This document shows, one piece after another, positions 1,167 through 10,279 of a DNA stretch of 20,205 nucleotides (position 1 is the stretch's first letter; the number at the start of each line of letters is the position of its first letter). The notes beneath the pieces are model-generated. The model was given only the letters and a program-made list of their open reading frames with translations, was not told the DNA's origin and searched no databases. Source of the stretch: a virus; the IMG/VR virus record IMGVR_UViG_3300032116_001642, positions 1 through 20,205 of that record; one strand, 5' to 3'. A program made the position numbers and the translations under genes.

Positions 1167-1418
1167 TCAGAAAGGGATTTCATCATCGAGATCGGCGGGC
1201 GCTTGGCGCGGCGCGGCTGGTGCGCTGGCGCCGTCCTTCGGTTTGACTGACAGACTAAAGAACCGCCCGGAACCGTCTTTGCGTTCCTTCACCCAACCTG
1301 AAAGCCAATACTCGCGCCCCTCCACATTGATGGAGCCGGAAAAATCCGGATGATTGTCTTGCGTCTTCCGGTCATTGCGCCCGAGGATGCCTTTATTCGT
1401 GTTGTCGTAGCCGCTCAT
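1167..1418 (-). CDS. Mini-protein with SSB-like acidic C-terminal tail
   Basis: 83 aa. Residues 24-60 alternate like short beta strands (SGSINVEGREYWLSGWVKE, FFSLSVKPK). A short Ala/Pro linker and the terminal DLDDEIPF (76-83) follow. Such acidic tips ending IPF are the hallmark of bacterial SSB, where they recruit RecG, RecO, PriA, Exo I and similar partners. The core is much shorter than a canonical SSB OB fold (about 110 aa), so this is either a minimal OB-like strand protein or a decoy of the SSB tail (inference). It overlaps the RecT-like stop by 4 nt, consistent with a role in strand annealing or replication restart. The tail is clearly seen; the fold is a guess. Confidence 0.75.
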   Translation of the reverse strand: MSGYDNTNKGILGRNDRKTQDNHPDFSGSINVEGREYWLSGWVKERKDGSGRFFSLSVKPKDGASAPAAPRQAPADLDDEIPF

Positions 1419-2209
1419 TCTGCCATTTCCTTTTCAGTGGTTTCTTCCAAGCGCGCCGTGATGGCCGCGCGAATATCTGCAACGGTGTCGGGGTAACGCG
1501 CTTCAACGGTGGCGAATGTGCCGAGGTTCGCATCAGCCCAGGCGCGCAACGCGGCGGGGTCATGCGCCAGCAGGCCAATCGCCTTCATCGCGGCACGGTG
1601 CCAAAGCTCGACGTTGGCGATCGCGTGTTCCTTGGTATGCGGGTCAATCAGCGGCAGGGGCTCGCTTGCGGGCCGTGCGGCGGGCGCTGACGCGGGTGCA
1701 ACGGCGGAGGCAAGGTTTTCCACGTGCCGCGGTTCGGCGGGCATGTCGTCAATTTCTTCCGGCGTGTAAGTGCCGACAATGCAGGCAGGGAACACGGTGC
1801 GGATGCCTTCGGAAATGCACCGGGCGCGAAGCATGGCGCGCGGGTAAGCCCTCCAAACATCTTTGCCGGAAAGGTTCGCGGCCTTGGCTTGTTCAATAGT
1901 CCAAGTGATTTCAACGCTACCACCTGCCGGGTGCGAAAACACACCAGACACGGCGCCTTCATCGTAGCGAGACCATTTGACGGAACCGCCGGCCTGCTGA
2001 AACCGCGCCAGCATGGCGTCTGACTTCATAGACGGGCGCCCGCTAATGACATGGTAATCGCGCAACGCAACAGCGGGGTGCAACCCTTCGCCCTGGCATA
2101 GCAGCATAATAGCCAATGCCTCGTCTTGCGTCTTAAAGCCGAACATGCGCGAATTGGCGGCGACCGCTGCCATTTTCGACATTTCGGCAAAAGGGACTAG
2201 ATCAGTCAT
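1415..2209 (-). CDS. RecT-like single-strand annealing recombinase (probable)
   Basis: 264 aa. The N-terminal region (ALAIMLLCQGEGLHPAVALRDYHVISGRPSMKSDAMLARF, residues 31-70) followed by AGGSVKW, a strand-rich segment and the block KDVWRAYPRAMLRARCISEGIRTVFP (116-141) matches the layout of phage RecT-type annealing proteins. These coat single-stranded DNA and pair complementary strands in phage recombination. The C-terminal third is Ala/Pro-rich and variable. It follows Gp157 by 3 nt and overlaps the SSB-tail gene, the usual recombination-cluster context. No exonuclease partner is visible; it may lie beyond the window's left edge. A related annealing family cannot be excluded without a profile search. 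Confidence 0.68.
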   Translation of the reverse strand: MTDLVPFAEMSKMAAVAANSRMFGFKTQDEALAIMLLCQGEGLHPAVALRDYHVISGRPSMKSDAMLARFQQAGGSVKWSRYDEGAVSGVFSHPAGGSVEITWTIEQAKAANLSGKDVWRAYPRAMLRARCISEGIRTVFPACIVGTYTPEEIDDMPAEPRHVENLASAVAPASAPAARPASEPLPLIDPHTKEHAIANVELWHRAAMKAIGLLAHDPAALRAWADANLGTFATVEARYPDTVADIRAAITARLEETTEKEMAE

Positions 2210-2212
2210 CGT

Positions 2213-2761
2213 TCATTGTTCCTTTGCTGTAATCACAAGAGACGGTGGAGATTGCGTGAGCGCCGCGCCGGGGATTTCCTCACCACGGTTTAGGCGCGCT
2301 TTAATGAGCGACTTGTCCGGCTCGCGCTTCATGCGCCAGCAGTCATCGGGTAGCGCCGCGTCATCGCTGATTTCCACGGCGCGGGCGCCATTTGCTCGCA
2401 ACGTCGCGCGGTGGTGCTTACCTTCTGCCATAGCCGCGCCGGGGTCGCCGCATTCGGCCAAGGCAACGCGCAAAGCCTCGCGGGCTTTGGCGGCGCCGTG
2501 TGTCAATTCCGCCTGGACGCGCGTCCAGTATGTCACGGCGCGCTTGGCTTCAGCCTCGGCGGCTTCAAGCGCAATAATCGCGTCCAATGCACCGGCAAGA
2601 CTGCCGTCAAAGCTATTGGCCTGCGCTGCTTTGCTAATGGCGCACTTTGCTTCGATCAGCGCCAGGCGCATCGGGTGCGCGTCATAGTCTGACATGGTTG
2701 CGGGAGCTTGGACGGCGCGCATATCCTCGCGCAGCTGCGCCGCAATGTTCTCGGCTGTCAT
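2213..2761 (-). CDS. Siphovirus Gp157-family protein
   Basis: 182 aa. A long helical N-terminal part (about residues 30-115, rich in Ala, Glu and Lys, coiled-coil-like) is followed by the family's characteristic end: ISDDAALPDDCWRMKREP, then DKSLIKARLNRGEEIPGAAL, then a final short strand. Gp157 proteins are common in siphovirus early regions beside annealing recombinases and SSB. Their biochemical role is poorly defined, and a link to recombination or host-defence resistance has been suggested. ATG at 2761 overlaps the upstream gene's TGA. It lies directly before the RecT-like gene, which fits the usual neighbourhood. Confidence 0.83.
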   Translation of the reverse strand: MTAENIAAQLREDMRAVQAPATMSDYDAHPMRLALIEAKCAISKAAQANSFDGSLAGALDAIIALEAAEAEAKRAVTYWTRVQAELTHGAAKAREALRVALAECGDPGAAMAEGKHHRATLRANGARAVEISDDAALPDDCWRMKREPDKSLIKARLNRGEEIPGAALTQSPPSLVITAKEQ

Positions 2762-3003
2762 TGTGCGTCTCCAAACAGGGAAAGCTGGTTTGGTTGCGGA
2801 ATGAACACATCGGCGCCGGCAGCTTTCAGCAGCGCGGCAAGCGCGGCGGCTTCGCGGCGCTGGTCGGCGGCATCATCGAGGCACCGCGCGGCGCGTTCCG
2901 GGTCAATGTGTTCGCAGCGCGCGGCGGAAGCCTCCAGGCGGCGGGCTTCGATAAGGCGCGTGGCGTGCAGGCCTGCCACGGTGGCAATATCGGCGCGGTC
3001 CAT
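2758..3003 (-). CDS. Small helical protein with C-terminal beta-clamp-binding motif
   Basis: 81 aa starting M-D-R-A-D-I. The ATG at 3003 overlaps the previous gene's TGA by one base (TGATG), so the longer frame to 3045 is unlikely. Residues 5-63 are almost entirely helical (RLIEARRLEASAARCEHID, AADQRREAAALAALLKAAG). The last 11 residues, PNQLSLFGDAQ, contain QLSLF (73-77), which matches the consensus QL(S/D)LF peptide that docks into the bacterial sliding clamp DnaN. Placement at a flexible C-terminus is how such motifs normally work. The protein may recruit the clamp to phage recombination, or compete with host clamp ligands (inference). No family is recognised. Confidence 0.78.
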   Translation of the reverse strand: MDRADIATVAGLHATRLIEARRLEASAARCEHIDPERAARCLDDAADQRREAAALAALLKAAGADVFIPQPNQLSLFGDAQ

Positions 3004-3170
3004 CACACGAGCCCCAGGATCACAAGCCAAACGGTGACAACCCACGCGGCGCCATGCAGCACGGCTTCAAAAGCCGCGCTCACATTGGCGGCGCCGAAGA
3101 AAATGGACAGCACCAGCACGGTGCAAAGCGGGCCGAGAACGACCCACCAGACGGTGCGCTCGGGGGTCAT
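3003..3170 (-). CDS. 55-aa two-helix membrane protein
   Basis: Read directly from the minus strand. ATG at 3170-3168 overlaps the upstream TGA (ATGA), GAGGGGGT lies a few bases before it, and its TGA shares a base with the next ATG. The product begins MTPERTVWWVVLGPLCTVLV. It has a first hydrophobic segment at about residues 7-26, a short polar stretch (NVSAAFEAV), and a second segment at about 40-55 ending VTVWLVILGLV. Two helices and almost no soluble part suggest a membrane hairpin. No family is recognised. Its early position is compatible with superinfection exclusion or membrane signalling, but that is only inference. Confidence 0.68.
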   Translation of the reverse strand: MTPERTVWWVVLGPLCTVLVLSIFFGAANVSAAFEAVLHGAAWVVTVWLVILGLV

Positions 3171-3592
3171 TGTGCCACCCCCTCGGCGCGCTCAATCAAG
3201 CGCAGCGAGTTATCCAGTAGGGCCAATTCATCAGCCAAGCCGCGATGCAGATAAGCGCTCTGCGTGGTGAGGCGCAGCTTCATCAAGCGTTGCGCCAATT
3301 CCAGGCATTTTTGCGCGGCTTGCACCCGGACGCCGGAAGCGCCGCTTTCAATGAATTTGAGAAACTCGGTCGCCAGCGCGGCAATGGGCTGCGCCAGATC
3401 GGCAGCTTCAGCATTGGCCGCGTCGGTGACGGCGATGTCTTCCCACTTGCAGGATGCAAAGCAGATTTCGTCGACCGCTGCGCTTACCCGCCCCTGCGCT
3501 ACCGCGACGTCATATTCAGCTTCATCGCGGTCATGGTGCGGATATTCTGGGCTGCGGTGGTCGTTTGTGACCAGGTTCTGCGGGTAGGGCAC
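3167..3592 (-). CDS. First gene of leftward operon, unknown phage protein
   Basis: About 141 aa if started at GTG 3592, which has a perfect GGAGG five bases upstream. An in-frame ATG at 3604 has no ribosome site, and its own codons form part of that GGAGG. The protein has an N-terminal acidic/histidine-rich patch (HRSPEYPHHDRDEAEY) and then helices (AVDEICF, AADLAQPIAALATEFLKFIE, KCLELAQRLMKLRL). No catalytic motif is seen and no family is recognised. As first gene after the predicted leftward promoter it would be the earliest leftward product, the position held by N or other regulatory and anti-host proteins in lambdoid phages. Function unknown. Confidence 0.7.
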   Translation of the reverse strand: MPYPQNLVTNDHRSPEYPHHDRDEAEYDVAVAQGRVSAAVDEICFASCKWEDIAVTDAANAEAADLAQPIAALATEFLKFIESGASGVRVQAAQKCLELAQRLMKLRLTTQSAYLHRGLADELALLDNSLRLIERAEGVAQ

Positions 3593-3597
3593 TGCGG

Positions 3598-3620
3598 CCT
3601 CCATCGGTTGGCGATGGAGG
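3598..3620 (-). promoter_or_regulatory. Hairpin covering the ribosome site of the first leftward gene
   Basis: Perfect 9-bp inverted repeat CCTCCATCG / CGATGGAGG with a 5-nt loop. In the leftward transcript the 3' arm (3606-3598) contains the GGAGG that precedes GTG 3592, so the hairpin would hide the ribosome site. If transcription starts near 3617, only the inner 6 bp can form. Confidence 0.5.
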
Positions 3621-3681: not shown

Positions 3682-4005
3682 TTATTTTGGCTTGATAATC
3701 CGCTCGGCAAATCCGGCTATAACTGCCAAACCTTCCTCGTCCATGTGCTGGATCGCTTTCAAAACCCTATCCATTTGCTGGGCACGCGGCGCGTCATCTG
3801 GATGCGCTGATAATTCCGCAACGGTTATGCCATAAGCCTTTGCAATAGCAGCAAAAGTCTCTTCGTCCACCCCAAGCTCCCCCAGCTCGTGCCTGCGAAT
3901 GGTAGTATGGGTGCTTCCGATTTCGTCCGCAAGCCATTGCTGAGTTTTATCGAATTTTTTGCGCCAAGCTAACAGGTGCGGGCGGGTAGGATGGGCTTTC
4001 TTCAT
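3682..4005 (-). CDS. CI-like HTH repressor (lysogeny regulator)
   Basis: 107 aa from ATG 4005. The frame extends to a TTG at 4023, but the ATG is preferred. Residues 11-62 form an XRE-type helix-turn-helix: LLAWRKKFDKTQQWLADEIG, STHTTIRRHELGELGVDEET, FAAIAKAYGITVAELSAHP. The remaining 40 residues (QQMDRVLKAIQHMDEEGLAVIAGFAERI) are a short helical region, probably for dimerisation. There is no LexA/S24 peptidase domain, so RecA-stimulated self-cleavage is not expected. It lies between two matching operator dyads and is transcribed leftward, as cI is in lambda. Half-sites in its own promoter and just upstream of its start suggest autoregulation. The repressor role rests on position plus HTH. 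Confidence 0.82.
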   Translation of the reverse strand: MKKAHPTRPHLLAWRKKFDKTQQWLADEIGSTHTTIRRHELGELGVDEETFAAIAKAYGITVAELSAHPDDAPRAQQMDRVLKAIQHMDEEGLAVIAGFAERIIKPK

Positions 4006-4006
4006 G

Positions 4007-4013
4007 CGTTCAT
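4007..4013. promoter_or_regulatory. Operator half-site at repressor start codon
   Basis: CGTTCAT lies immediately upstream of the repressor ATG (4005-4003). It is one operator arm without a partner at the standard spacing. Binding here could damp repressor expression. Confidence 0.35.
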
Positions 4014-4044
4014 TAATGCCCAAAAAAAAATCTAGGGGAACGAC

Positions 4045-4321: not shown

Positions 4322-4412
4322 GCACCGCATCCGTCAAGCCATCGCCCGCCTGTTCTGGGCCATCGGGGATGGCATCTGCGCCATTGGCGACCGCATCCGG
4401 GGGCGCGACTAA
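4314..4412 (+). CDS. 32-aa basic amphipathic mini-protein
   Basis: ATG at 4314 lies within the end of the Cro-like gene (8-nt overlap) with AAGG about 9 nt upstream. The stop TAA shares a base with the ATG of the next gene. The product (MIKHRIRQAIARLFWAIGDG, then ICAIGDRIRGRD) is one basic amphipathic helix with repeated AIGD / RIR pattern. Coupling on both sides supports translation. No known family; it could be a membrane-surface or nucleic-acid-binding peptide. Confidence 0.5.
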   Translation: MIKHRIRQAIARLFWAIGDGICAIGDRIRGRD

Positions 4413-5140
4413 TGCCCAGCGGTTATTTCTGGAGCGCCGAACAGGACGCGCAACTGCGGCAGTATTGGGACGCGGGCCATTCCACGGCTGAGATTGGCCG
4501 CCGCATGGGCGTCACCAAGAATAGCATTATCGGCCGCGCGCATCGCCTGCTGCTGCCGCCGCGTGCTGCCATTTGTGGTTCAGCCTTGGCGCCGGTCTCG
4601 GACCGTCAGCGCGACATCATCCGCAATTTGTGGCGGGCCGAACCCATTACAGCAATTTGCCGACTTACCGGCCTGGACGCCCGCCGCGTCAAGAAACTCG
4701 CGGTGGAGATGGCCCTGCCGGAACGTGATGCGACCTTGGGCACAATGCTCAGGGCGCGGGCGGCGCGCTTCAACACTTCCCCGAAGCGTGCCGTCCAATC
4801 CTCCCGCTTACTTTTTTCAGCGGTTGAGCGCCTGGGTGCCTCCCCCCAGGTGGAGTTGCCCGGCGCGGTTGCGGAAACGCCGCCGCGCCGGGTCTTTTCG
4901 GGGGCGTGCTGCAAGTTTCCCATGTGGCACGACAGACAGGCCGCGACGCATGTCTATTGCGACGCGCCTGCCGTGGAAAACGTGAAGGGCGAGGCGTCGC
5001 CGTATTGCGCCGCCCATTACGCGCTTTGCCTCATTGAACCCAAGAAACACGCCGAACAACGCAAAGCCGCGCGCCTGGCGCTGCTGGCGGCGGGGCAACT
5101 CAAACCCATGCCGGGCATCGACACATGGAGGTGGGGATGA
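4412..5140 (+). CDS. GcrA-family transcription regulator, phage form
   Basis: 242 aa. The N-terminus (WSAEQDAQLRQYWDAGHSTA, EIGRRMGVTKNSIIGRAHRL, residues 7-46) matches the GcrA DNA-binding helix-turn-helix, including the NSIIGRAHRL recognition region. The C-terminus (C167-K-F-P-M-W through VYCDAP C183 and SPYCAAHYA C199/H202) matches the GcrA domain that contacts sigma70. In Caulobacter GcrA activates sigma70 promoters carrying CcrM-methylated GANTC. This copy is longer than the cellular protein (about 170 aa). It carries an extra HTH-like stretch (residues 62-104, VSDRQRDIIRNLWRAEPITA, LTGLDARRVKKLA) and a long linker. It may redirect host RNA polymerase to phage promoters (inference). The family is confident; the target promoters are unknown. 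Confidence 0.85.
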   Translation: MPSGYFWSAEQDAQLRQYWDAGHSTAEIGRRMGVTKNSIIGRAHRLLLPPRAAICGSALAPVSDRQRDIIRNLWRAEPITAICRLTGLDARRVKKLAVEMALPERDATLGTMLRARAARFNTSPKRAVQSSRLLFSAVERLGASPQVELPGAVAETPPRRVFSGACCKFPMWHDRQAATHVYCDAPAVENVKGEASPYCAAHYALCLIEPKKHAEQRKAARLALLAAGQLKPMPGIDTWRWG

Positions 5141-5534: not shown

Positions 5535-5740
5535 CCCGCGCCGCGCCAGACAGGCAGCCGAGGCAACGCGCGCCGCGTTTGTATGGATACCGAATGGCTG
5601 AGCAAAAGCTTCGGGACCAGCCCAATGATACATGGGGCTATTTGGTCCCGGTTACCGTCCTTCGTGTTGAATTGGAGGTGCCAATGCGCGAACTAAACGT
5701 GCAGCAGCTTGATATGCTTGCCGGTAGGAGCGTCACATGA
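5531..5740 (+). CDS. 69-aa unknown phage protein
   Basis: The start is taken as the ATG at 5531, which overlaps the upstream TGA. The same frame is open further upstream but only as a shadow. The N-terminal 20 residues are basic (TRAAPDRQPRQRAPR). A strand-like region follows (GYLVPVTVLRVELEVPMREL) and ends NVQQLDMLAGRSVT. No catalytic motif is seen. Its coupling directly into the RuvC-like gene (ATGA) suggests a joint role or simply operon packing. Confidence 0.68.
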   Translation: MTRAAPDRQPRQRAPRLYGYRMAEQKLRDQPNDTWGYLVPVTVLRVELEVPMRELNVQQLDMLAGRSVT

Positions 5741-6201
5741 TCCTTGGCATAGACCCCGGCAACACTGGCGCCATTGCTTGGCTTTCCACCGAAGGCCACT
5801 TGATTGAAGTGCATGACTTGCCGGTGGTGAAAGGCAGCGGCCTTATCGAAGCTGTGCTGGTGGACATGATCCGCGCGCGTTCTGATGTGCATCACGCATG
5901 GATTGAGCGCTTGGCATCGAGCCCTCAAATGGGCGTCGTCAGCGCGTTCAATTTCGGCATGGGCTACGGCAAGATTAAAGGCGTCCTGGCCGCGTGCGGT
6001 ATTCCATTAACCGAAGTCACGCCAGCCAAATGGAAGGGCGCGCTGCGCCTTTCTTCCGATAAGTCTGCATCACGCGCCCGCGCGGCGCAGCTATGGCCGG
6101 GCCTCGCTGGAACTTTCGCGCGCGTCAAAGACGATGGCCGGGCAGAGGCGGCGCTGATTGGGCTGTATGGCGCAACGGGCGGGAAGGGGGCGGTGCGATG
6201 A
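5737..6201 (+). CDS. RuvC-like Holliday junction resolvase
   Basis: 154 aa, RNase H-fold nuclease. Visible catalytic acids: D6 in LGIDPGNTGA, E57 in AWIERL, and the C-terminal pair D133/E137 in KDDGRAEAALIG, which corresponds to the DxxD end of RuvC. Other family features are FNFGMGYGKIKGVLAACGIP (71-90) and VTPAKWKG (94-101). It would cleave four-way or branched DNA made by replication and annealing recombination, clearing DNA before packaging. Length is near the family's usual 150-170 aa. It starts and ends with 4-nt overlaps within the early operon. Confidence 0.88.
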   Translation: MILGIDPGNTGAIAWLSTEGHLIEVHDLPVVKGSGLIEAVLVDMIRARSDVHHAWIERLASSPQMGVVSAFNFGMGYGKIKGVLAACGIPLTEVTPAKWKGALRLSSDKSASRARAAQLWPGLAGTFARVKDDGRAEAALIGLYGATGGKGAVR

Positions 6202-7337
6202 AATACGGTTCCGTCTGTTCCGGCATTGAAGCAGCGACGGCGGCTTGGCATCCGCTTGGCTGGCAAGCGTCTTTCTTTTCCGAGATTGAACCTTTCCAGC
6301 GCGCCGTGCTGGCACACCACTACCCCAACATACCCCTCCATGGTGATTTCACCACCATCAAAGGTTCCGAATATGAGCCAATCGACCTTCTTGTGGGAGG
6401 AACCCCCTGCCAATCCTTCAGCATCGCGGGACTCAGAGGCGGCCTGGACGACGACCGTGGCAACCTGGCCCTTGAGTTTCTCCGCCTTGCTGACCGAACA
6501 CGGCCCAAGTGGCTGGTTTGGGAGAACGTCCCCGGCGTCTTGTCGTCGAACGGAGGACGGGACTTTGGTTCCATACTCGGGGGCATGGTCGAACTCGGGT
6601 ATGGCGTCGCCTACCGAGTCCTTGACGCTCAATACTTTGGAGTGGCCCAGCGTCGCCGCCGTGTGTTCGTTGTCGGATACCTTGGAGACTGGACCCGTGC
6701 CGCAGCGGTTTTATTTGAGCGCCACAGCTTGCAGGGGCATTCTGCGCCGCGCCGAGAAGCGCGGGAAAGTGTTGCCGGAACGCTTGGAGGAAGCTCTCAA
6801 AGCGGCGGCTTTCGCACAACCGACCTAGACAATAGCGGCGCCTTCATTCCTGTGCAGGCGAATACGCTTATGTCATTCGGGCATAGCCCGAACCCGCTTG
6901 ATGAAACGCTGGTTGCGCAGACCGTCGCGCCCTCACTCACAAGCAACCCATACGGCGATCACGAAAGCAGAGAAGGTACGCTGGTTGCCTTTGGTGGTAA
7001 TCGCACAAGCGGCCCCATTGATGTGACGCCCGCGCTGCTGGCGCAGCCGGGATCAGGCGTCAAATGCGACTTTGAAAGCGAGACGTTCATAAAGACCGGC
7101 CTTGCACACCAGCATGGCGGTAGCATCGGCCCTCATACCTTCGCCGTCCGCCGCTTAACCCCGCGCGAGTGCGAGCGCCTCCAAGGCTTTCCTGATGATT
7201 ACACGCTGGTTCCCAATCGCGGAAAGCCTGCCGCAGATGGCCCCCGCTACAAGGCGCTAGGGAACTCGATGGCCGTGCCGGTTATGCGGTGGATTGGCCA
7301 GCGCATTTCCGCATCGGAGCGCCGCCATGCAGCGTAG
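6198..7337 (+). CDS. C5-cytosine DNA methyltransferase (phage)
   Basis: 379 aa from ATG 6198, coupled to the resolvase stop (ATGA). An open frame upstream to 6093 is a shadow. All main motifs are present in order: I (SVCSGIEAATAAW, 4-16), IV with catalytic C71 (GGTPCQSFSIAG), VI (ENVPG, 109-113), VIII (QRRRRVFVVG, 151-160), a target-recognition region (about 170-320) and IX/X (RRLTPRECERLQGF, GNSMAVPVM). It transfers methyl from SAM to cytosine C5. No restriction endonuclease is adjacent, so this is an orphan enzyme. The usual phage role is protection from host restriction. The recognition sequence cannot be told. Its 3' end overlaps the opposite-strand HTH gene by 81 bp. Confidence 0.92.
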   Translation: MKYGSVCSGIEAATAAWHPLGWQASFFSEIEPFQRAVLAHHYPNIPLHGDFTTIKGSEYEPIDLLVGGTPCQSFSIAGLRGGLDDDRGNLALEFLRLADRTRPKWLVWENVPGVLSSNGGRDFGSILGGMVELGYGVAYRVLDAQYFGVAQRRRRVFVVGYLGDWTRAAAVLFERHSLQGHSAPRREARESVAGTLGGSSQSGGFRTTDLDNSGAFIPVQANTLMSFGHSPNPLDETLVAQTVAPSLTSNPYGDHESREGTLVAFGGNRTSGPIDVTPALLAQPGSGVKCDFESETFIKTGLAHQHGGSIGPHTFAVRRLTPRECERLQGFPDDYTLVPNRGKPAADGPRYKALGNSMAVPVMRWIGQRISASERRHAA

Positions 7338-7481
7338 CGCCACCCTTGCCGGGCCTGGAATGGCGCGCTCACCAAGCGCCCATTTCCGCACCGTGCGTTC
7401 ATCCACTTCAAGCGCCGTTGCCGCCGCGCGCTGCGACATGCCGAGCGCTGCAATCGCTTCCCGGAATTGCTCAGGCGACAC
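7257..7481 (-). CDS. Small HTH transcription regulator, antisense module
   Basis: About 74 aa from GTG 7481; TTG starts at 7490 and 7505 are also possible. An HTH fills the first 55 residues: SPEQFREAIAALGMSQRAAA, TALEVDERTVRKWALGERAI, PGPARVALRCMAAL. The pattern SQRAAATALEVDERTVRKWA is a clear XRE-like DNA-binding unit and resembles the other small HTH gene at 11513-11728. It lies on the strand opposite the early operon, 11 nt overlapped with the upstream partner gene, tail-to-tail with the C5 methyltransferase (81-bp overlap). It probably binds the palindrome in its own operon promoter (inference). A TA-type antitoxin is an alternative. Confidence 0.72.
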   Translation of the reverse strand: MSPEQFREAIAALGMSQRAAATALEVDERTVRKWALGERAIPGPARVALRCMAALRCGNALANPPHNRHGHRVP

Positions 7482-7686
7482 GGCGGACAATGCCTTGCGC
7501 GTCAACTGTCATGCCAGCCGCCGCCAGGGCAGGGCGCAACGTCTCAATCGTTTCGTCCATGCGGAACGTGTTGGACAGCGTGCCGTCAGCCTTGAACAGC
7601 GCCAGGCGCTCGGGCCGGTCGTCGCGGCGGCTGATGAAGCCGATTGCATCGGCGGGAAGGGCGGGGCGGGTGGCGGGCTTGAACAT
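7471..7686 (-). CDS. Unknown 71-aa protein, first gene of antisense HTH pair
   Basis: Sequence from ATG 7686 begins MFKPATRPALPADAIGFISR, continues RRDDRPERLALFKADGTLSN and ends AAAGMTVDAQGIVRRVA. It looks like a small alpha/beta protein (GFISRRDD, RLALFKADG, GIVRRVA) with no catalytic signature I recognise. ATG 7686 is preferred over ATG 7692 because the predicted transcription start falls on it, making the message leaderless. It is directly followed by the HTH gene, so the two are co-expressed. It could be a toxin, a co-regulator or an unrelated moron product. Confidence 0.65.
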   Translation of the reverse strand: MFKPATRPALPADAIGFISRRDDRPERLALFKADGTLSNTFRMDETIETLRPALAAAGMTVDAQGIVRRVA

Positions 7687-7692
7687 ACGCAT

Positions 7693-7721
7693 AATCTAGG
7701 CCCATGGGGCCTATATGTCAA
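7693..7721 (-). promoter_or_regulatory. Near-consensus promoter of the antisense HTH pair
   Basis: Minus strand: TTGACA (7721-7716), 17-nt spacer, TAGATT (7698-7693). The -35 is perfect and the -10 matches 4 of 6. The predicted start is on or next to A7686, the first base of the ATG. The spacer is filled by a palindrome. Confidence 0.65.
7697..7713. promoter_or_regulatory. Palindromic operator in the HTH-pair promoter
   Basis: TAGGCCC-ATG-GGGCCTA, a perfect 7-bp inverted repeat with a 3-bp spacer, lying between -35 and -10. It is unrelated in sequence to the TGAACG operators of the main repressor, so a different protein should bind it, most simply the adjacent HTH product. Confidence 0.6.
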
Positions 7722-7732
7722 GGGGTATTTTC

Positions 7733-7885
7733 ATGGCTGAAACACCCCGCGCCACAGCCGAAGAAATCGACGCCTGGGTCGCGCGCTGCCGTCACAACCT
7801 AGAAACCCGCGCGCCCGATCCTGTCGAGGATGAGGAACGCGCGGCGCATTTCGAGACACACAAAGCCAAAGGCGCGAAGAAATGA
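7733..7885 (+). CDS. 50-aa acidic mini-protein upstream of the replication gene
   Basis: ATG 7733 has AAGGGG about 9 nt upstream, and its TGA (7883-7885) overlaps the next ATG (ATGA). The product (MAETPRATAEEIDAWVARCR, then HNLETRAPDPVEDEERAAHFETHKAKGAKK) is helical and highly charged, with an acidic middle and a basic end. No family is recognised. Position directly before the prim-pol/helicase and translational coupling suggest a replication accessory. Confidence 0.68.
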   Translation: MAETPRATAEEIDAWVARCRHNLETRAPDPVEDEERAAHFETHKAKGAKK

Positions 7886-9891
7886 GCCTGACCCAAAGCG
7901 CCATTTGGCTTGCGGAAGAAATGCGCCTGCCGGTCTTTGCTTGCGGGCCGGATAAGCGCCCCGTGACGCAACACGGCTTCCATGACGCGACACGCGACCC
8001 GACAGAAATCCGCCTGCAATTCAGCACCCCAGGCGCGGCCATGATTGGCGTGCCGACCGGGCAAGGTGCCGGGTTCTTTGTTGTGGATCTCGACGTCAAG
8101 AATGGCGGGCAAGGCCTGGAATGGCTGGCGGCAAACCAGCACCGCTTGCCCCGCACCAGGACACACAGGACACGCTCGGGCGGGCAGCATCTTCTTTTTC
8201 AATGGCCGGAAGGCCGCACCATTCGCAACAGCGCTTCACGCGTGGCACCCGGCGTCGATGTCAGAGGCAACGGCGGGTATATTATCGCGCCCCCATCCCC
8301 AGACTACGAGATAGCCGACGCCGCCGCGCCTATGCCCGCCCCGGCATGGCTGCTGGACCTGATAGACCCGCCTGCCGCAACCGCACCAGCCCCAGCCCCG
8401 CGCCCGGCGCCCGCGCCCCGCACCAGCGGCGACGGCACGCGCTACGGCCTGACCGCCCTCGACAACGAATGCCAAGCCATCCTGAACGCGGCGGACGGCG
8501 GCAAGCATGACGCGCTCAACCGCGCCGCGTTCTCGATCGGCGGCCTAGTCGCGGCCGGTGAGCTGGCGGAAGGCCCAGCCTTCGCCGCGCTATCATCCGC
8601 GCTGGCAGGCATCCGGCACCGCTGCGAGGATTTCCGCGCGGCGGAGAAAACACTCGCCACCGCGTTCCGCGCCGGCATGGCCAAGCCCCGTGAAGCGCCC
8701 CGGCTGATGCGCCGCATTGTGGAAGAATACGAACCGCGCCCGGAGCCGCCGCCGCTGACAGAAGCGCCGGACCATTGGAGCGCCGAACCGGAGCCGGACA
8801 TCGGCCTGGAGCCGGAACGGGTGGCGGCGGTTGTTCAATCCACGGCCCTGCCGCTGATTTATTTCGAAGACGTCAAGCCCGCGCTGAAGGCCGAGGATTT
8901 CGTCGAGGGCCTCATCATCAAGGGCGCGATGTCGGTCGTCTACGGCCCGTCCAACTGCGGCAAGACGTTCTTCATGGCCGACCTGGCGCTTCATGTGGCC
9001 ATGGGCTTGGAATGGCGCGGGCGTGAGGTGGAGCGCCTAGGCGTGATCTACTGCGCCTTGGAAGGCGCGCACGGCATCGCCAACCGCGTGGCAGCCTTTG
9101 CCCTGGCGTGCGGCCTAGACGGACAGCGCATCCCCTTCGCCATTATCCCGGTATCGCTGAACCTATTGGACCCCAACGCCGACACCGGCCGGCTGATTGA
9201 CGCCGTCAAGGCCGCAGCCGAGCGCATGGAAATCCCGGTCGGCCTGGTGGTGATGGACACGCTTTCCCGAGCCATGGCCGGCGGCAATGAGAACAGCCCT
9301 GAAGACATGGGCGCGCTGGTGACCAATTCCGCCCGCATCCAGCAGGCGACCGGCGCGCATGTGGCGTGGATCCACCACAGCGGCAAAGACCAAGCCCAAG
9401 GGGCGCGCGGCCATAGCCTATTGCGCGCGGCCACCGATACCGAAATTGAAATCAGCCGCGCCGACAATGACAGCCCATCCGTCGCCAAGGTGACCAAGCA
9501 GCGCGAATTGGAAATCGATGGCGTGTTCGGCTTCACCCTGAAGCGGGTGGAACTAGGCCTGAACCATCGCGGCAAGCCGGTGACGTCATGCGTGGTCGAG
9601 CCGACCGAAGACCGCCCCGCCAAGCCGCGTATCAACCTCACCAACGGCGAGGCCATGGCGCTGCGCATCCTCCATGACGTGATGGCCACGCAGCCCGTCC
9701 AGGTGCCCTACCAAGCCTCGCAGGCGGGCGTGACGGTGGCAGCAAGTAAGCACGCATGGCGTGAGACGTTCTTCGCACGTTCAACCGCCGATAGCCATGA
9801 GGCGAAGAAAAAAGCCTTCAACCGGGCGGCCGATGGGCTGGCCCAAAAGGGGCAAATCGGGGTGCATCACGACACAGTTTGGGCGGTGTAA
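7882..9891 (+). CDS. Prim-pol / RecA-like helicase replication protein
   Basis: 669 aa, two domains. The N-terminal half (about 1-165) is a bifunctional primase-polymerase domain: catalytic acids in FFVVDLDVKNG (D69, D71), H103 in SGGQHLLF, and VDVRGNGGYIIAPPS (126-139). A Pro/Ala linker follows (162-180), then a helical section (190-280). The C-terminal domain (about 325-600) is a RecA-like ATPase of the RepA/AAA_25 type: Walker A GPSNCGKT (355-362), Walker B LVVMDTLS (D459), and VAWIHHSGKD (494-503). It would prime and unwind phage DNA, starting replication largely independently of host primase. The candidate origin lies just downstream in the next gene. It overlaps the preceding 50-aa gene by 4 nt. 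Confidence 0.9.
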   Translation: MSLTQSAIWLAEEMRLPVFACGPDKRPVTQHGFHDATRDPTEIRLQFSTPGAAMIGVPTGQGAGFFVVDLDVKNGGQGLEWLAANQHRLPRTRTHRTRSGGQHLLFQWPEGRTIRNSASRVAPGVDVRGNGGYIIAPPSPDYEIADAAAPMPAPAWLLDLIDPPAATAPAPAPRPAPAPRTSGDGTRYGLTALDNECQAILNAADGGKHDALNRAAFSIGGLVAAGELAEGPAFAALSSALAGIRHRCEDFRAAEKTLATAFRAGMAKPREAPRLMRRIVEEYEPRPEPPPLTEAPDHWSAEPEPDIGLEPERVAAVVQSTALPLIYFEDVKPALKAEDFVEGLIIKGAMSVVYGPSNCGKTFFMADLALHVAMGLEWRGREVERLGVIYCALEGAHGIANRVAAFALACGLDGQRIPFAIIPVSLNLLDPNADTGRLIDAVKAAAERMEIPVGLVVMDTLSRAMAGGNENSPEDMGALVTNSARIQQATGAHVAWIHHSGKDQAQGARGHSLLRAATDTEIEISRADNDSPSVAKVTKQRELEIDGVFGFTLKRVELGLNHRGKPVTSCVVEPTEDRPAKPRINLTNGEAMALRILHDVMATQPVQVPYQASQAGVTVAASKHAWRETFFARSTADSHEAKKKAFNRAADGLAQKGQIGVHHDTVWAV

Positions 9892-9895
9892 TTCG

Positions 9896-10279
9896 ATGCA
9901 AAAGAGCAACGAACTACCCCTTTTTGCCGCCGCATATGCCGGGACATTGCCGGGACAAATCGGGACAAATCGGGACATTTTAAGCGGCGGCGAGAGACAT
10001 GTCCCGGGACATTCTGGAACCCCCCCCCTAAAGGGGGGGGTCCATTGTCCCGATGTCACGGGGCGGGACATGTCCCGGTCAGACGATGTCCCGGCTAGAC
10101 TGATTACAAAACGGAACGAAAGCCGGAAGGCAATCTTCGACGCCTGGCTGGCCGAGTGCCGAGCCTATGACGCGGCCGGTCGGCAAGACGAAGTGCCGCC
10201 CCTGCCCGAGCGCTTCCTGACCAACGGGCCGAAGCTATGGCGCGATGGCCCGGCCCATGCCGGCAAGCGGTGGCGCTGA
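9896..10279 (+). CDS. Gene containing the candidate replication origin
   Basis: 127 aa from ATG 9896, four bases after the helicase stop; no strong ribosome site. Residues 15-67 are encoded by the GGGACA/TGTCCC repeat region and read as low-complexity (AGTLPGQIGTNRDI, VPGHSGTPPLKGGVHC, VTGRDMSRSDDVPA). The repeats fall in different frames, so the DNA rather than the protein is conserved. The C-terminal 55 residues (KRNESRKAIFDAWLAECRAY, PPLPERFLTNGPKLWRDGPA) look like a genuine folded unit. It may be an initiation accessory that spans its own origin, as lambda O does (analogy). The true start could lie downstream of the repeats. Confidence 0.6.
   Translation: MQKSNELPLFAAAYAGTLPGQIGTNRDILSGGERHVPGHSGTPPLKGGVHCPDVTGRDMSRSDDVPARLITKRNESRKAIFDAWLAECRAYDAAGRQDEVPPLPERFLTNGPKLWRDGPAHAGKRWR
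9941..10092. repeat. Iteron-like GGGACA/TGTCCC array, candidate replication origin
   Basis: Ten copies in 152 bp. Direct GGGACA at 9941, 9952, 9962 and 9972, spaced 11, 10 and 10 bp, so on one face of the helix. Then TGTCCC 10000 with GGGACA 10006 (14-bp palindrome ATGTCCCGGGACAT), TGTCCC 10046, GGGACA 10065 with TGTCCC 10071 (palindrome CGGGACATGTCCCG), and TGTCCC 10087. The position next to the primase/helicase gene suggests an initiator-binding origin. Confidence 0.65.
10020..10040. repeat. C9-TAAA-G8 inverted homopolymer
   Basis: Nine C, TAAA, eight G in the middle of the iteron array. It can form an 8-bp G:C hairpin or a G-rich structure. It has no T-tract and lies inside coding sequence, so a terminator is unlikely. 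It may be a structural part of the origin. Slippage in such tracts is common, so read errors should be excluded. Confidence 0.6.

Follow-up and report, generated by a model that had tools for sequence, protein, structure and literature searches.

What does a phage gain from a very small protein that ends in the sliding-clamp-binding consensus of bacteria? The question is raised by a 20,205-base virus record from IMG/VR (hereafter the window), in which an open reading frame (ORF) on the minus strand (2758–3003; ATG at 3003, stop codon ending at 2758) encodes an 81-aa protein that we refer to as family 1. An alternative upstream GTG would lengthen the product to 95 aa; homolog alignments begin at the ATG instead. 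The initial annotation had described a product ending in PNQLSLFGDAQ, which matches the consensus for clamp binding exactly, and this end is indeed present in the translation, with QLSLF occupying residues 73–77 (2773–2787, minus strand), four residues before the protein end, and GDAQ closing the protein. The bacterial clamp motif is given as QL(S/D)LF and as frequently C-terminal (in part of PMC9690074), and the available portion of PMC4549789 calls QLSLF the full consensus and reports that a transposase with QLSLF bound the clamps of three bacteria (Acidiphilium, Leptospirillum and E. coli). According to extracts of PMC12309361, the C-terminal QLSLF of PolC binds B. subtilis DnaN with a KD of 3.8 µM, and mutation at motif position 1, 4 or 5 lowers binding in E. 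coli.

The scan of the window covered 191 ORFs (minimum 40 aa), of which family 1 alone has QL[SD]LF, and shuffling of residues within these ORFs produced the motif anywhere in 43/2000 runs and among the 12 C-terminal residues of an ORF in 3/2000. Scans of viral contigs identified 21 contigs with full-length family 1 (window included), which encode 20 distinct proteins with identities to the window's protein from 96% down to 47%; one further contig (L061) has a copy that ends before the tail, and an additional viral-contig scan starting from a divergent member yielded no further contig. One of the homolog scans relied on patterns that lie next to the motif or inside it, and homologs found by that scan alone are not motif-blind; the searches with Gp157 and with the 55-aa neighbour (see below) were motif-blind. 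The block QLSLFGD is invariant in all 20 distinct full-length proteins, and Q, L and F, the retention of which the initial annotation had named as a check, are thus kept in every homolog (20/20), with a body that diverges to as little as 47% identity. Invariant columns number 29 of 81 in the alignment, the longest run being the seven-residue motif block and other runs spanning at most two; when the invariant columns were shuffled, a run of seven arose in 2.4% of trials and columns 73–77 were all invariant in 0.46%. The codons under this block vary among the 20 homologs (two for Q, three for L, four for S, three for L, one for F, two for G and two for D), that is, four of the five motif codons show synonymous change with zero amino-acid change, and the motif F is always TTT, with no synonymous variation. 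Synonymous variation in the codons for Q, L, S and L indicates that selection acts on the QLSLF peptide.

A second signal overlaps the end of the tail. GGAGA within codons 78–79 (2768–2772, minus strand) is likely to be the ribosome-binding site of the following gene: GGAGAY (GGGGAT once) is present in all 20 homologs, TTTGGAGAY spells the F-G-D codons and GGAGA lies about 7 bases ahead of the start codon of the next gene, which overlaps family 1. The G-D of the tail is thus also constrained at the DNA level. This ribosome-binding site accounts for the G-D part of tail conservation; the proposal that the tail is conserved solely through it was dropped, given that it covers G-D and not Q-L-S-L. 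A broader version, in which the tail is kept for the translation signal of the next gene together with an unrelated partner and the likeness to the clamp consensus is a coincidence, can draw on the position of GGAGA ahead of the next start codon and on a chance of finding the motif in the last 12 residues that is small, not zero (3/2000 shuffles). We regard this as very doubtful, given the silent codon changes beneath QLSL in family 1 and the occurrence of QLSLF or QLDLF in a second, unrelated family that is described below.

The body of the protein gives a further indication of how the motif may be displayed. The initial annotation had pictured a helical body with a flexible C-terminus and no named family, and both points hold: an AF2 model built on a 20-row alignment (mean pLDDT of 87.1) has two high-confidence helices (residues 3–30 and 35–61) followed by a low-pLDDT coil at 62–81 that carries QLSLF, so that the motif is predicted to lie in an accessible, unstructured segment, and clear matches were lacking in Pfam, PHROGs, NCBIfam and the PDB. 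Specifically, family 1 had no match in Pfam or NCBIfam, the best PHROGs E value over 20 members was 0.072 (not significant), the best value in a PDB profile search was 0.35, and the PHROGs and phages collection searches gave no significant match to any named protein. A BFVD fold search returned one real relative, A0A6J5NJF8, an uncharacterized 81-aa protein of an uncultured phage (58% identity), all other matches being generic helix pairs (E of 0.38 or worse). No match was obtained with tblastn of the 81-aa protein against the phages collection (E up to 1), of a family 1 homolog against plasmids (E up to 1) or of the 22-aa tail against the phages collection (E up to 10), and two scans of genome contigs with the family 1 and Gp157 alignments gave no relative.

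The genes around family 1 point to recombination. On the minus strand, the operon likely begins with a gene for a 145-aa protein (3167–3604; one homolog) and continues with a 55-aa hydrophobic, membrane-like protein (3003–3170), the stop of which overlaps the family 1 start. Behind family 1 follow a Siphovirus Gp157 family protein (2213–2761; PF05565, E of 2.6e-7, above cut-off), the start of which overlaps the family 1 stop (ATGA), a RecT-like single-strand annealing protein (1415–2209; phrog_561, E of 5.8e-21; Pfam RecT, E of 1.1e-4, just below cut-off), a small SSB-like protein ending in DLDDEIPF (1167–1418; phrog_7364, E of 5.1e-19) and, at the end of the operon, a phrog_5931 protein (357–1151; E of 9.5e-36). 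The one promoter-like match on this strand (3651–3622) is weak (9/12), with 0.6 expected by chance over both strands. A helix-turn-helix repressor-like gene lies at 3682–4023 (minus strand; PF01381, E of 1.2e-7), and the phages that carry family 1 look temperate.

Other features of the window and its relatives deserve mention in their own right. A homolog of the cell-cycle regulator GcrA (4412–5140, plus strand; PF07750, E of 3.9e-14) recurs in most of the related contigs; it suggests that the host is an alphaproteobacterium, the cell-cycle transcription of which the phage may control. Acidiphilium, mentioned above, belongs to the alphaproteobacteria. A 48-aa ORF ahead of a RuvC-like gene (5594–5740, plus strand) ends in QQLDMLAGRSVT, with a clamp-like QLDML near the C-terminus, and has no homolog among the related loci compared. 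Long pentapeptide-repeat genes of widely differing length adjoin the operon in several relatives (L029, 4946–6001; L032, 6231–7013; L035, 4866–5897; L053, 3177–4004).

The association with recombination genes recurs to a large extent in relatives. The motif-blind search with Gp157 found 17 contigs, all 17 of which, as well as the window, contain family 1, and the family 1 gene lies ahead of the Gp157 gene in 18/18 Gp157-bearing contigs. The search with the 55-aa neighbour found 23 contigs: 17 with Gp157, all of them with family 1, five without Gp157 (one with family 1) and one that ends inside family 1. The recombinase behind Gp157 changes among the 18 contigs (RecT-like type 1 in 3, RecT-like type 2 in 8 and a Sak4-like ATPase in 7), and the idea that family 1 is bound to one recombinase type was dropped, as the types scatter on the family 1 tree (10 label changes against a shuffled mean of 10.1, on a weakly resolved tree with 4/17 inner branches well supported and an unsettled bootstrap). 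All 18 recombinases have in common a single type of C-terminal domain, some 80 aa long (in the window's annealing protein at 1415–1657, minus strand). It is found on RecT-like, Sak4-like and phrog_11517-like cores (for example, in the window, in L019 at 6846–7826 and in L008 at 5575–6243), SSB genes ending in DDEIPF adjoin the recombinases that have it, and it may serve as an SSB-docking module in the manner of the lambda Bet C-terminal domain.

The association has exceptions. Contig L017, a 23.5-kb fragment, contains family 1 and none of the tested recombination genes, and L031 and L032 (one phage) have family 1 with a DUF3799 exonuclease and without Gp157, L032 also encoding a phrog_11517 protein; the Gp157 module is therefore not strictly required. 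Family 1 is absent from L008, L072 and L073, which have exonuclease modules, from L053, where recombination genes were looked for and not found, and from L006, which has a distant RecT. The layout being general in other Gp157 or RecT phages was likewise dropped: in the eight GenBank phage regions with a similar Gp157 or RecT gene that were examined, out of 6 Gp157 and 166 RecT records matched, small proteins with QL[SD]LF at a terminus were absent (0/8). Two of these eight regions, from Pantoea phage PA-1 and Escherichia phage HK639, encode RecT-like proteins (L074, 2814–3713; L076, 2793–3713) with QESLF and QEPLF 10–13 residues from the start, pentapeptides that fit the loose form QxxLF.

The case of L017 could be taken to mean that family 1 docks on the clamp not to deliver a recombinase, but to displace or borrow a host factor (for example, of mismatch repair, a translesion polymerase or an Hda-type initiation brake). 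Many host factors share the one clamp cleft (as described in part of PMC9690074); however, such a role leaves the constant pairing with Gp157 (18/18) unexplained, and we consider it quite unlikely.

An unexpected second clamp-motif protein bears on whether the peptide is a docking element at all. This 127-aa protein, family 2 (9896–10279, plus strand), is encoded directly after the replication gene for a fusion of PrimPol and RecA-like helicase (7882–9891, plus strand; PF09250, E of 3.3e-33; PF13481, E of 1.5e-34). It is unrelated to family 1 and has its LF motif near the start: the N-terminus is MQKSNELPLF in the window, with ELPLF (9911–9925, plus strand) being a degenerate form of the QLSLF found in most relatives, and MVIARNQLSLF in its relatives. 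A wider scan, in which one of two search patterns contains the motif and the other does not, gave 36 contigs, of which three with an incomplete N-terminus were excluded; the 33 complete copies have QLSLF (18), QLDLF (2), QPDLF (3), QPSLF (2), DMPLF (4), ELPLF (2) or DMDLF (2), that is, L and F at positions 4–5 in 33/33, Q at position 1 in 25/33 and D or E there in 8/33, with the strict form QL[SD]LF in 20/33. Some phages have family 2 behind PrimPol and others behind a D5-type primase-helicase, and the third motif residue (S or D) differs between these two settings: a D5-type gene precedes family 2 in G004, G006, G009 and G010 (assigned by Pfam for G006 and by near-identical sequence for the other three), in which the motif is QLDLF, as it also is in G005, where the preceding gene lies beyond the stretch listed. 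Neither Pfam nor PHROGs gave a match to family 2, and its AF2 model is mostly of low confidence (mean pLDDT of 55.9), with a single helix at 68–94.

The two families together take up every strict motif in a wider census. In 24 contigs (620,644 bases) chosen without using family 2, QL[SD]LF occurs 33 times in ORFs of at least 40 aa (28 QLSLF and 5 QLDLF), and all 33 fall in family 1 (20) or family 2 (13), counts that stem from related genes and are not independent. In a permutation control, no other ordering of QLSLF occurred more than 6 times and none of QLDLF more than 5, QLDLF alone not being above the control. Because two unrelated families of the same phages share the peptide at opposite termini and in both consensus spellings, docking on host DnaN is the simplest account of both and a likely one, and the family 1 tail probably binds DnaN. 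The phage of the window may rely on family 1 alone, its family 2 motif being ELPLF.

The clamp in question is probably that of the host, because no match to DnaN, PolA or DnaE domains (PF02767, PF00476 and PF07733) was found in 18 records, all of which are fragments. Docking on it might serve attack as well as use, with the family 1 tail filling the clamp cleft, displacing host Pol III and stopping chromosome replication. Proteins with the same target offer precedents (SocB and RipA are clamp-targeting toxins in portions of PMC9690074 and PMC12795458, and Twort gp168 and G1 gp240 are phage DnaN binders listed as host shut-off factors in part of PMC3594737), and the small size and lone exposed motif of family 1 would suit an inhibitor. 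Yet a clamp block would harm the phage too if, as the fragment records suggest, these phages encode neither a polymerase nor a clamp; moreover, family 1 travels with a recombination module and not alone, and the presence of family 2 in the replication operon points to use of the clamp, not to its blockade. We consider such a blocking role unlikely. The balance leans towards recruitment of phage machinery over host shut-off, since family 1 accompanies the recombination module, family 2 goes with the helicase-primase and the phages seem dependent on the host clamp.

We tentatively suggest, at a little under an even chance of being right, that family 1 is a clamp tether that rides on host DnaN, holds a phage partner and so delivers recombination to forks. 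The C-terminal QLSLF would slot into the cleft in which the host clamp binds peptides, the two-helix hairpin would grip a phage partner, most likely from the adjacent Gp157–recombinase–SSB module, and this tethering could lead to single-strand annealing at clamp-loaded forks while the phage replicates. Family 2, with its N-terminal QL[SD]LF and its place after the helicase-primase, may be the equivalent tether for the replication module. The partner of the hairpin, recruitment over blockade and the timing are all steps that we infer, and the occurrence of family 1 without Gp157 in L017 and L031/L032, the degenerate family 2 motif of the window (ELPLF), the D or E at motif position 1 in 8/33 family 2 copies, the overlap of the F-G-D codons with a likely ribosome-binding site and the 0/8 result in GenBank regions count against such tethering. 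In a more far-reaching form, which we think somewhat unlikely, the two families would be dedicated, unrelated couplers, one for any recombinase behind Gp157 and one for any helicase-primase; were this true, recombination and replication modules could be swapped between phages without contact with the host replisome having to evolve anew. Phage single-strand annealing proteins are thought to be active at replication forks, and their route there is not settled; a small dedicated clamp tether would make the question of fork access testable and could serve recombineering in alphaproteobacteria. In addition, a terminal QL[SD]LF kept under synonymous drift could be a cheap finder of clamp users in unannotated phage genes.

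Among known systems, a literature search (titles and abstract openings in one open library) found no phage recombination-module protein with QLSLF. The closest context is that of operons with Siphovirus Gp157 (PF05565) and RecT or Sak4, members of which adjoin family 1 directly; family 1 is an extra gene in these Gp157–recombinase operons, without a Pfam, PHROGs or NCBIfam match. Closest in presumed target among phage proteins are Twort gp168 and G1 gp240 of S. aureus phages, which are reported to target DnaN; by description, they shut off host replication, whereas family 1 goes with the recombination genes of another phage group. SocB of Caulobacter crescentus comes from an alphaproteobacterial setting, as family 1 probably does, and reportedly binds in the cleft of the clamp by means of a clamp-binding motif; again by description, it is a toxin–antitoxin partner. 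In architecture, family 1 resembles the PolC C-terminus and the IS transposases, which likewise carry a QL[S/D]LF pentapeptide at an unstructured terminus. Family 1, known here from sequence, differs from both in being phage-encoded and in consisting of a predicted two-helix hairpin only, with no enzyme domain; with the IS transposases, which use the host clamp, it has in common that it is a protein of a mobile element.
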